Of a DNA stretch of 64,000 nt, positions 60,818 through 63,661 are shown piece after piece. The notes under the pieces are model-generated. The model saw only the letters and a list, made by a program, of their open reading frames with translations. It searched no databases and had not been told where the DNA came from. This DNA is from Micromonospora musae (lineage in GTDB: Bacteria > Actinomycetota > Actinomycetes > Mycobacteriales > Micromonosporaceae). The first letter of the stretch is position 1, and each line of letters starts with the position of its first letter. The stretch covers positions 496,001 through 560,000 of the forward strand of contig NZ_RAZT01000002.1 of NCBI RefSeq assembly GCF_003626635.1, given 5' to 3'. Both the position numbers and the translations under genes were made by a program.

Positions 60818-61047
60818 GCCGTTTCCACCCCTCTTCGGTACGAGATCCCCGCGATGCCGGGGAGACACGGGGTTCAGCCGGTCGCCCGCGGTCACGATGT
60901 CGACGAGTCAGCTGGGGTACCCACTTCTGCGCGAGATTCCCGGCATGGGCCACGAGGGTTTGATGCGAGGTCATACGGCCAGCTGAGGCCCTTGTCGGCC
61001 TGGTTCGGCTCGCGTGGTTGCTGTACTTCGCTGCTGTACTGCTGGTC

Positions 61048-61221
61048 TCAGACGAGGCGCTGGATGCGGACCTTCGGTTGCTCGTTTCTCAGGTGGCCGT
61101 GCTTGTGCTGGCGGACCTGCTCGTTCCACACCTCCTGGCCGTAGTCCGGGTTCGGCGGGATCCACTTGTGGGAGCCGTCGCTGTAGTGGAACTTCTCGTC
61201 ACCGGGCCGCAGGATGCTCAT
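61048..61221 (-). CDS. Tiny protein, third of a coupled trio
   Basis: This 57-residue soluble protein has MSILRPGDEKFHYSDGSHKWIPPNPDYGQEVWNE-type composition, with aromatic and proline residues and a basic tail (RIQRLV end). I recognise no family. Its ATG overlaps the previous gene's stop (ATGA), so it is translated by coupling and not from its own ribosome site. Conservation could not be tested, but the reading frame has good third-position bias. Confidence 0.6.
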   Translation of the reverse strand: MSILRPGDEKFHYSDGSHKWIPPNPDYGQEVWNEQVRQHKHGHLRNEQPKVRIQRLV

Positions 61222-61436
61222 CGGATCCATCCGACGAACCGGTGATGCAGGTGGCCGGCGGGGACGTGGGCCAGGTCCTGGCTGGCGTCGACGAGCTGGG
61301 CGGCCAGGTAGAGGGCCAGCGACACCGGGGCGCTGTCGTACTCCGCCCGCAGCTCTCGCCGCCGGGTCTGACAGGGCCACTCCCCCGCACAGCCGCCGCA
61401 CGTCCAGGCCGGCTTGACCGGGTGGTGGGTGGTCAT
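61218..61436 (-). CDS. Small Cys-rich protein, second of a coupled trio (often named flavin reductase)
   Basis: This 72-residue protein has KPAWTCGGCAGEWPCQTRRRELRAEYDSAPVSLALYLAAQLVDASQDLAHV and a C-terminal RFVGWIR. Similar actinobacterial proteins are often labelled flavin reductase, but the CxxC-xxx-WPC N-terminus looks like a metal site and no flavin fold is visible at this length. It overlaps its neighbours by 4 bases on both sides. The function is unknown. Confidence 0.7.
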   Translation of the reverse strand: MTTHHPVKPAWTCGGCAGEWPCQTRRRELRAEYDSAPVSLALYLAAQLVDASQDLAHVPAGHLHHRFVGWIR

Positions 61437-61621
61437 CGCGGGCTGTCCTGGCTGGGCCAGTGGCCGCGGTTGATCGGGATGCAGTGAAGGCTGCGGCACG
61501 GCAGGCTCGCGCCGCATCGGCAGACGCGCCGCCAGCGCCGCCAGGACCATACGGGCCGATGCCTACGGGCGAGAGTCAGCGCGGTGGCCAAGAGGTATTC
61601 GTCGTACGAGACGCGCCGCAC
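61433..61621 (-). CDS. Tiny Cys-rich basic protein, first of a coupled trio
   Basis: This 62-residue protein has RRVSYDEYLLATALTLARRHRPVWSWRRWRRVCRCGASLPCRSLHCIPINRGHWPS. The CRCG-x4-C-x4-C pattern suggests a zinc knuckle on a basic surface, which could touch nucleic acid or a partner. The GTG start begins about 100 bases after the promoter. Its stop overlaps the next ATG. I recognise no family. Confidence 0.62.
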   Translation of the reverse strand: MRRVSYDEYLLATALTLARRHRPVWSWRRWRRVCRCGASLPCRSLHCIPINRGHWPSQDSPR

Positions 61622-61725
61622 GTGCCCCTCCCTCGTCGATCACGAGGGCGAGCTCCTCCCCCGTGGCTGAGAGGGACGCGGCGGCCAGGCGAGACCCGCA
61701 CCGCCCGCCGCATCCCGTGAGCAAG

Positions 61726-61769
61726 AAGCTACGGTCGGTTGCGGAGCGGAATGGGTATGGTTCGTACCC
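61726..61769 (-). promoter_or_regulatory. Candidate promoter and operator of the small-protein operon
   Basis: On the minus strand TAGCTT (61726-61731) is a plausible -10. Just upstream, GGGTATG-GTT-CGTACCC (61753-61769) is a 17-base dyad with six of seven positions matching, set beside the XRE stop. The XRE protein encoded upstream is the obvious candidate binder. Confidence 0.55.
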
Positions 61770-61774
61770 CTAGA

Positions 61775-62986
61775 TCACGAGAGCAGCCCGACCTTCACGG
61801 CGAGGTCACGGGCGTCGTCACGGGTGGAACGCGGGCCATCGAGCAGGTCCAGGGTGATCTGACGGGCGTACCCGTTGAAGCGGATCGTCTCCGGGGCCGA
61901 CTCGTACGCCCGCCGGAGGGTCACCACGGCCGCTTCCTGGTCGTTCTTGCCGTAGTGCGCCCGCGCCACCTCGATAAGATGGCGCGCCCCGCGCGGCCTC
62001 GACGGGATCGCTGCCGAATCGTGGCGGCGCGCCTGCCGCACCGCCTCACCTGACTTCTGCAACTCCACCGCCACGGTCACAGCATGAGCGCCCATGATGA
62101 CTCGGGAGAACGATGTCTGCGGTTGATAGAAGCCCTGCGGCAGGCGCTGCGCCATCCGGTCCGCGCGGTCCCAGTACCGCCAGGCCCGGCCTTCCTCGCC
62201 AGCACGAGCGGCGGTGTAGGCGACCTCGAAGTTCAGCGCGCCCCAGAGCGCCAAGAGGTTCGCGTTCCCGTCGGCCATCCTCGGCTCAAGAGCCGAGAGC
62301 ACGTCAAGAGTCACGGCCGTAGCGGTATCCCAGTCCCCGGCATCCCGATGCACCTGGCACAGGAACCATCCCGCGCATGCCACCGCCTCCGGATCACCAG
62401 ACTCCTGCGCCGCCACCATCGCCCGGTCCGCAACCCGCCACAACAGCTCGGCGGCAGGTTGGTAGGCAAGGAACATCTGCGTCAGCCCGAGCGCCTCCGC
62501 CAACAGGGCCTGCGCCTGCCGGCGCTCGTCACCCTCGTATGCCAACGCGGCGCGCTGCACGTCGCGCAGCAACCCCGGCAACAAGCCACCCAACACCGTA
62601 CGGTGATCGGACGCCTGATGGCGCGCCCGCCATGCCACCGCAAGCCGCTCCCTCAGGCTCGTCAACGACTCGACAGAAACCTCGTCGGAGAATACGAATC
62701 GGTTCACTGCGTCCCGGACGGACGCCAACGCTGGATGCTCCGGCCCGTTGACCACAGCAGACCGGGCGCCCAACTCGCCGGCCAGGGCAGAGACCTCAAC
62801 CTTGAGGGCACGCGCGATGCGATCCAGCATGTGAATGCGCGGCGGCAGGATCCGATCGGTCTCCACCGCCTTGACCCACTCAGCGCTACGGCCAACCAAC
62901 CCACCAAGCACCGCCCGAGTCTTCCCGGACCGCTCCCGGTAGACCTTCAACCGCTGCCCGAAAGTCAGTTCCGGCAAAGGTTCCAT
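61775..62986 (-). CDS. XRE-family regulator with large helical C-terminal domain
   Basis: This 403-residue protein has an N-terminal Cro/CI-type helix-turn-helix (TFGQRLKVYRERSGKTRAVLGGLVGRSAEWVKAVETDRILPPRIHMLDRIARAL, residues about 8-62) and a C-terminal series of helical pairs reminiscent of TPR repeats (for example AQALLAEALGLTQMFLAYQPAAELLWRVADRAMVAAQESGD and RHLIEVARAHYGKNDQEAAVVTLRRAYE). Such proteins sense peptides or partner proteins in actinomycetes. GAGGAGG precedes ATG 62986. Three tiny genes follow on the same strand after 153 bases, so it may regulate or partner with them. Confidence 0.9.
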   Translation of the reverse strand: MEPLPELTFGQRLKVYRERSGKTRAVLGGLVGRSAEWVKAVETDRILPPRIHMLDRIARALKVEVSALAGELGARSAVVNGPEHPALASVRDAVNRFVFSDEVSVESLTSLRERLAVAWRARHQASDHRTVLGGLLPGLLRDVQRAALAYEGDERRQAQALLAEALGLTQMFLAYQPAAELLWRVADRAMVAAQESGDPEAVACAGWFLCQVHRDAGDWDTATAVTLDVLSALEPRMADGNANLLALWGALNFEVAYTAARAGEEGRAWRYWDRADRMAQRLPQGFYQPQTSFSRVIMGAHAVTVAVELQKSGEAVRQARRHDSAAIPSRPRGARHLIEVARAHYGKNDQEAAVVTLRRAYESAPETIRFNGYARQITLDLLDGPRSTRDDARDLAVKVGLLS

Positions 62987-63277: not shown

Positions 63278-63661
63278 TTAGTGCTGGTCGGCCATCGGCG
63301 CTTGCTGCCCGAAGAACTCGCGGAGGAGCCGGCAGAGGGTCGAGATGGCCCGCTTGTGGTCGTCATCGCTGACAAGGCGGTCCTCGGTGGCATTGTCACC
63401 GAAGGTCTCCGCTAGCGCCAGAGACCAGAAGGCGAGGCTGCTGCCACGGTGGCGGGCGGTCATCCACTCCTGGAACACCGCCAGCTCGCCCCGGCCACGC
63501 GCAAGGTCAAATCCGGTCAGCGCCGAGAACGCTCGGTCGTACCTTGGCCGCCCGACGTACAGACCCAGCCTGTGATCCACATGCCAAAGGAACTCTTCCC
63601 AGCCCACCGAGGCATTGTCTCTGACCATGACCGCTTCGGTGTGAACGCAGATGCGGGACAT
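63278..63661 (-). CDS. Hypothetical protein
   Basis: This 127-residue protein has VGWEEFLWHVDHRLGLYVGRPRYDRAFSALTGFDLARG and FQEWMTARHRGSSLAFWSLALAETFG, mostly helical. Third-position G/C is lower than in the rest of the window, hinting at a different history. I recognise no family; it may relate to small actinobacterial proteins found next to XRE genes, which is an impression only. A later ATG at 63628 could be the true start. Confidence 0.6.
   Translation of the reverse strand: MSRICVHTEAVMVRDNASVGWEEFLWHVDHRLGLYVGRPRYDRAFSALTGFDLARGRGELAVFQEWMTARHRGSSLAFWSLALAETFGDNATEDRLVSDDDHKRAISTLCRLLREFFGQQAPMADQH

Follow-up and report, generated by a model that had tools for sequence, protein, structure and literature searches.

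Control genes of integrative elements in actinomycetes are known mainly from pSAM2, namely KorSA, Pra and Pif. The pSAM2 circuit has KorSA as the repressor of pra, with Pra serving as the activator of repSA-xis-int (PMC8584621). In the Sco3937 element, a remnant, a KorSA-type GntR gene (a korSA homologue) and a pra homologue have a common divergent promoter region (PMC8584621). In AICEs, mdp-nud-xre sets, XRE and GntR genes, and Pif immunity have also been documented (PMC3218068).

Here, we describe an operon of three tiny genes (hereafter the trio) found in a stretch of 64,000 nucleotides from Micromonospora musae, the whole of which is referred to as the window. The source genome comprises 7.07 Mb in 33 contigs, and its named relatives are all Micromonospora. 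Elements carrying the trio share with pSAM2-type elements the tRNA 3'-end att repeats, a tyrosine integrase, Xis and RepSA, as well as a GntR gene divergent from a small-protein gene, and XRE and HD/NUDIX genes nearby. They differ from these elements in that the trio consists of tiny proteins without recognised similarity to Pra, and in that the associated GntR proteins are only 71–74 aa long and have no ligand domain. The window copy differs further, since its regulator is an XRE protein, it has no integrase, and its replication gene is present only as a RepSA fragment. XRE-DUF397 pairs of the WhiJ and Scr1/Scr2 type also place an XRE regulator beside a tiny protein, but nothing in the window trio matches DUF397, and the window XRE, which has a TPR-like part, is of the PHROG 5823 kind. 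In their lysogeny region, the temperate Streptomyces phages OnionKnight, Eklok and Chymera contain full-length relatives of this XRE (38–49%) followed by several small, partly overlapping and partly Cys-rich genes; however, their tiny-protein families are different, and the trio is not surrounded by phage genes.

Organization of the Locus

The genes are arranged on the minus strand in the order XRE, a gap of 153 bases that contains a 17-base dyad, orf62, orf72 and orf57, and the orf62/orf72 and orf72/orf57 junctions are each a 4-base ATGA overlap. This layout had been proposed by a first-pass annotation, and the coordinates of the 62-, 72- and 57-codon genes, of the gap and of the dyad all proved correct. 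orf62 (61433-61621, minus strand) has a GTG start and encodes an invariant CxC-x5-C-x3-H motif (C34-x-C36-x5-C42-x3-H46). orf72 (61218-61436, minus strand) has an ATG start and encodes an invariant CxxC-x5-C motif with WPC (C13-x2-C16-x5-C22) as well as three predicted helices. orf57 (61048-61221, minus strand) also has an ATG start, and its product contains no Cys, the invariant residues being H12, H18, W20, W32, H39 and H43. The Cys patterns pointed out earlier in the first two proteins are therefore borne out by the invariance of their Cys/His positions, and the spacing of these residues suggests that the small proteins, two of them with Cys motifs, are probably zinc-binding. None of the three has a Pfam or NCBIfam family match above cut-off. 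An AlphaFold2 model of the orf72 product (pLDDT 88) has a Cys-rich start followed by three helices; a fold search with this model returned nothing with E under 5, and the best Z in a second search was 4.1, under the noise level. The model of the orf62 product was poor (pLDDT 59). The earlier doubt about the label 'flavin reductase', which is attached to relatives of orf72, was justified, as a 72-aa protein of three helices without a family match above cut-off gives it no support.

The XRE/HTH_31 regulator (403 aa, 61775..62986, minus strand) is of the phage/integrative-element type, and has a C-terminal helical (TPR-like) region. It matches HTH_31 in Pfam (2.7e-12) and, over its full length, PHROG 5823 (1.1e-100), and XRE-like proteins with 38–49% identity occur in temperate Streptomyces phages. 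NCBIfam gave only a weak HTH match below cut-off (TIGR03070, E 0.057), and PADLOC only weak matches to HTH models. Directly upstream of the XRE gene lies a 127-aa ORF (63278-63661, minus strand) without a family match, the start of which overlaps an att-like 20-mer.

The dyad at 61753-61769 (GGGTATGGTTCGTACCC, unstranded) has the form GGGTA-N7-TACCC, which occurs once in the 64 kb where shuffles lead one to expect 0.01 occurrences. Among eight distinct places with a window-type XRE (>70% identity), seven have the dyad GGGGTAC-NN-ACC-N-TACCC, which is kept in L029, L088, L163 and L167 and is absent from every fetched locus without such an XRE. The dyad, confined in this way to loci with a window-type XRE, is the best candidate operator to which the XRE protein would bind. 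At L087 (G210:C1:4896351), the XRE is 87% identical to that of the window, and the exact dyad pattern is missing.

Conservation and Distribution of the Trio

All three ORFs are evolving under purifying selection, with a median dN/dS of 0.13 for orf57, 0.22 for orf72 and 0.13 for orf62, compared with 0.9–1.5 for wrong frames and downstream DNA as controls. The trio recurs as a set at about 80 Micromonospora loci, with different flanks and at non-orthologous sites, and the gene order and ATGA overlaps recur over these loci, save that the orf62-orf72 overlap is lost in some. Both the proposal that the three genes are translated as a unit and the expectation that they would be conserved together, the first and third proteins included, are upheld by this recurrence and by the low dN/dS values (0.13–0.22). 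Within the family, orf57 is present in 94 and orf62 in 130 of 301 genomes, usually in 1–6 copies per genome. In about 244 further genomes of the class from other families, the trio proteins were not found, save for one marginal orf62 match (E 1e-3, with stops). At class level, orf72 and orf57 matched only in Micromonospora, and so did orf62 apart from that one match, orf62 being essentially restricted to Micromonosporaceae. Searches of plasmid and phage collections with orf62, orf57 and orf72 gave nothing useful, and Bradyrhizobium IS66 matches of orf72 (E 6e-3) were rejected as they look like chance.

The source genome has three trio copies, on contigs C2 (the window), C6 and C14, the last with a stop in orf62, and nine copies of the orf72 family. 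Six orf72-family genes stand without orf62 or orf57 (L023–L028: G000:C2:382066-382278, C23:39164, C12:110687, C7:268029, C2:145579 and C2:215250), and the paralogues in L026 and L027 lie divergently beside an XRE + DUF397-like pair. An XRE gene is found near orf72-family genes at 13 of 33 fetched loci, which come from three genomes and include some loci fetched twice.

Interchangeable Regulators Upstream of the Trio

The regulator is interchangeable: the trio follows regulators of at least eight different kinds, with the tiny genes themselves unchanged. A divergent 71-aa GntR gene lies upstream at 26 loci, a second GntR gene (74 aa) at 22 and a third type at 9, and in the same locus set the window-type XRE precedes the trio at 5 loci and other XREs at 4. 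The other trio loci have HD+XRE, NUDIX+XRE, further XRE lineages, or no recognised regulator. At one chromosomal site, different species have a GntR gene (L102) or HD+XRE (L123), and the same site is empty in three genomes, with a spacer of roughly 50–130 bases; neither terminal repeats nor a target duplication was apparent there by eye. A transposon-like mobile cassette was considered, and was dropped after tRNA 3'-end repeats had been found. The regulatory link between the XRE and the trio suggested by the first-pass annotation is supported by the dyad, which is present at seven of the eight places with a window-type XRE and nowhere else. The XRE is just one of at least eight regulators.

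L098 (15778-16518), L123, L113 and L133 contain a variant of the cassette in which a divergent XRE (362 aa) is accompanied by an HD-domain hydrolase. In this variant, orf62 lies about 180 bases from orf72, and in L098 the gap between them is filled by an additional Cys-rich 59-aa ORF.

The Trio in tRNA-Integrated Elements

In many trio copies, the DNA downstream of orf57 terminates in a tRNA 3' half. In complete relatives, the order is tRNA-Val(CAC) or tRNA-Lys(TTT), integrase, Xis, RepSA, GntR, trio and finally 38–44 nt that repeat the 3' end of the tRNA. In L089, integrase, Xis, RepSA, GntR and trio are flanked on one side by tRNA-Val(CAC) and on the other by 44 nt that duplicate its 3' half exactly, and the G163 element (about 13.6 kb) has the same genes with an exact 44-nt att repeat; in L092 and L139, the repeat is a 38-nt one (97%) of tRNA-Lys(TTT). 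Domain matches in trio-bearing elements include Phage_integrase (1e-20), HTH_17 (Xis) and RepSA (PF20199, 3e-144), the last being the pSAM2 initiator family. Trio-bearing relatives therefore have both the att repeats and, between these repeats, the integrase, Xis and RepSA genes of a pSAM2/AICE-type element. The trio is very probably the attR-end module of such tRNA-integrated elements, and a real and conserved one. This membership, together with the interchangeable regulators, goes beyond what the first-pass annotation had proposed.

An FtsK/SpoIIIE-type transfer protein is encoded in the intact G228 element, the trio there being in an adjacent tandem remnant, and no FtsK-type transfer gene is listed inside the G163 trio element. 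The G163 element also contains a stand-alone homing-endonuclease/LAGLIDADG ORF with an intein-like start (L098:3748-4947). A RelE-like/YefM-like pair, recognised by eye, lies at L265:4033-4562 in the tandem remnant adjoining the intact AICE at tRNA-Lys, and comparable pairs are found in L263 and L178.

The window copy itself is a decayed remnant and not an element. The same strand carries an intact tRNA-Val(CAC) at C2:566690-566762, about 9 kb upstream of the trio and past the end of the window, and the DNA between it and the XRE gene holds fragments of RepSA (71%) and of a GntR gene (81%) as well as a 105-aa element gene (76%). The conserved non-coding tail past orf57 (60956..61047, minus strand), which in intact relatives runs into the tRNA 3' half (attR), ends in the window before the tRNA piece, which is lost. 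No integrase was found at the window locus, nor any clear attR; the only att-like piece is one of 20 nt, a 19/20 match to the 3' region of tRNA-Val(CAC) at 63628..63647 (minus strand), which is weak (E 8e-4 in the window) and may be an old att fragment. Rfam gave one sub-threshold match over 59–64 kb, which was taken as chance. The window locus thus does not combine an integrase of its own with both att sites, and it is classed as a remnant because it lacks an integrase, because RepSA, GntR and the 105-aa gene persist only as remnants, and because its tail stops short of the tRNA piece. The remnant perhaps derives from tandem elements.

A Possible Pra-Like Switch

The position of the trio suggests, with about even chances, that it fills the slot of Pra as a repressor-controlled switch made of tiny proteins. 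A repressor, which would be the XRE in the window and the divergent GntR of 71–74 aa in most relatives, would control the three-gene operon. On its release, the trio proteins would be expressed as a stand-in for pra, and, probably with bound zinc, would jointly switch on excision, replication or transfer. In most copies, the GntR gene is divergent from the trio. The placement in the Pra slot is based on the XRE-before-Pra layout in the intact G228 element and on the absence of Pra matches in four trio genomes. In the former, a 29% relative of the window XRE (7472-8668 of L265) lies 186 bases before a Pra-family gene, in the way that the window XRE lies 153 bases before orf62; this gene scores 77.2 bits for the SCO3933 family, slightly short of the 80-bit cut-off. 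In the trio-bearing genomes G000, G163, G267 and G184, the Pra-family profile found no match, though a diverged Pra could escape it, and in G194 and G283 the Pra match lies distant from the trio element examined. None of the three trio proteins has an NCBIfam match to the Pra (SCO3933 family) profile.

A pure activator of int and rep does not explain why the trio is kept, since it remains intact at most loci with a truncated integrase. orf72 and orf57 are intact at 76–84 of 92 loci, and, among the 20 loci where an integrase was matched, 5 have a near-full-length one, the upstream DNA being 6–10 kb at most loci. The survival of the trio beyond the integrase would be explained by a function which outlives the element, such as immunity, control in trans or addiction. 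A wider proposal, which we regard as tentative and rather unlikely to hold in full, is that three co-translated microproteins, of which two would bind metal, form a regulator-independent cassette able to work under repressors of at least eight kinds. This cassette would take over from Pra as the switch in a large clade of Micromonospora elements, and hosts would also keep it after decay of the element because it excludes or controls other elements in trans.

Conjugal immunity or exclusion, in which the regulator and the trio would block the entry or integration of related elements as Pif does in pSAM2, is unlikely on balance; it is likewise doubtful, though conceivable, that the module stays useful to host and remnant once the element has decayed. 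The regulator and trio are indeed intact in many remnants, HD and NUDIX hydrolases (the kind to which Pif belongs) adjoin some trio copies, and genomes contain several trio copies. However, NUDIX and HD genes are found at a minority of loci, the trio has no enzyme-like domain, and the several copies in many genomes argue against strong exclusion among carriers.

The first-pass annotation had also suggested a toxin-antitoxin-like module, a metal-binding relay or a morphogenesis switch. None of the three found direct support, and no known toxin, antitoxin or defence family matches the trio. Addiction of the kil-kor or toxin-antitoxin-like kind is retained as an alternative, in which at least one trio product would be harmful unless repressed by GntR or XRE, with the result that repressor and trio are kept jointly; we consider it quite improbable. 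It is favoured by the trio surviving where the integrase is broken and by remnants which retain repressor and trio together, and in these elements kil-kor systems are known and deletion of a korSA homologue proved impossible (PMC8584621). Nevertheless, orf72 or orf57 is broken at up to about one fifth of loci, some trio copies have no detected regulator, PADLOC matched the trio to no toxin-antitoxin or defence system, and a related XRE-DUF397 pair, predicted to be a toxin-antitoxin system, proved not to be toxic (PMC6262351).

A phage-derived lysogeny module, in which the XRE would be a repressor of the prophage type and the tiny genes would be early phage genes captured by the element, is very unlikely. 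The full-length PHROG 5823 match would agree with it, and so would the XRE relatives of OnionKnight, Eklok and Chymera, which lie directly after the lysis genes and before 2–4 small genes, some Cys-rich; OnionKnight and Eklok also have an integrase nearby. The IMG/VR contig L231, where an XRE occurs with two small genes, one orf72-like gene and one recombinase-like gene, would agree with it as well. Against it, the small proteins of the phages are no homologues of orf62 or orf57, neither of which was found in viral contigs, the trio has RepSA and GntR element genes rather than phage structural genes as neighbours, and the att/RepSA evidence largely counters it.

Significance

Micromonospora is an antibiotic-producing genus. 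In its elements, an unnamed operon, encoding the same three proteins under many repressors, would take the place of the control genes of pSAM2. Three families of tiny proteins thereby gain a context and a testable candidate operator, and the question becomes whether they act as an activator, in immunity or in addiction.
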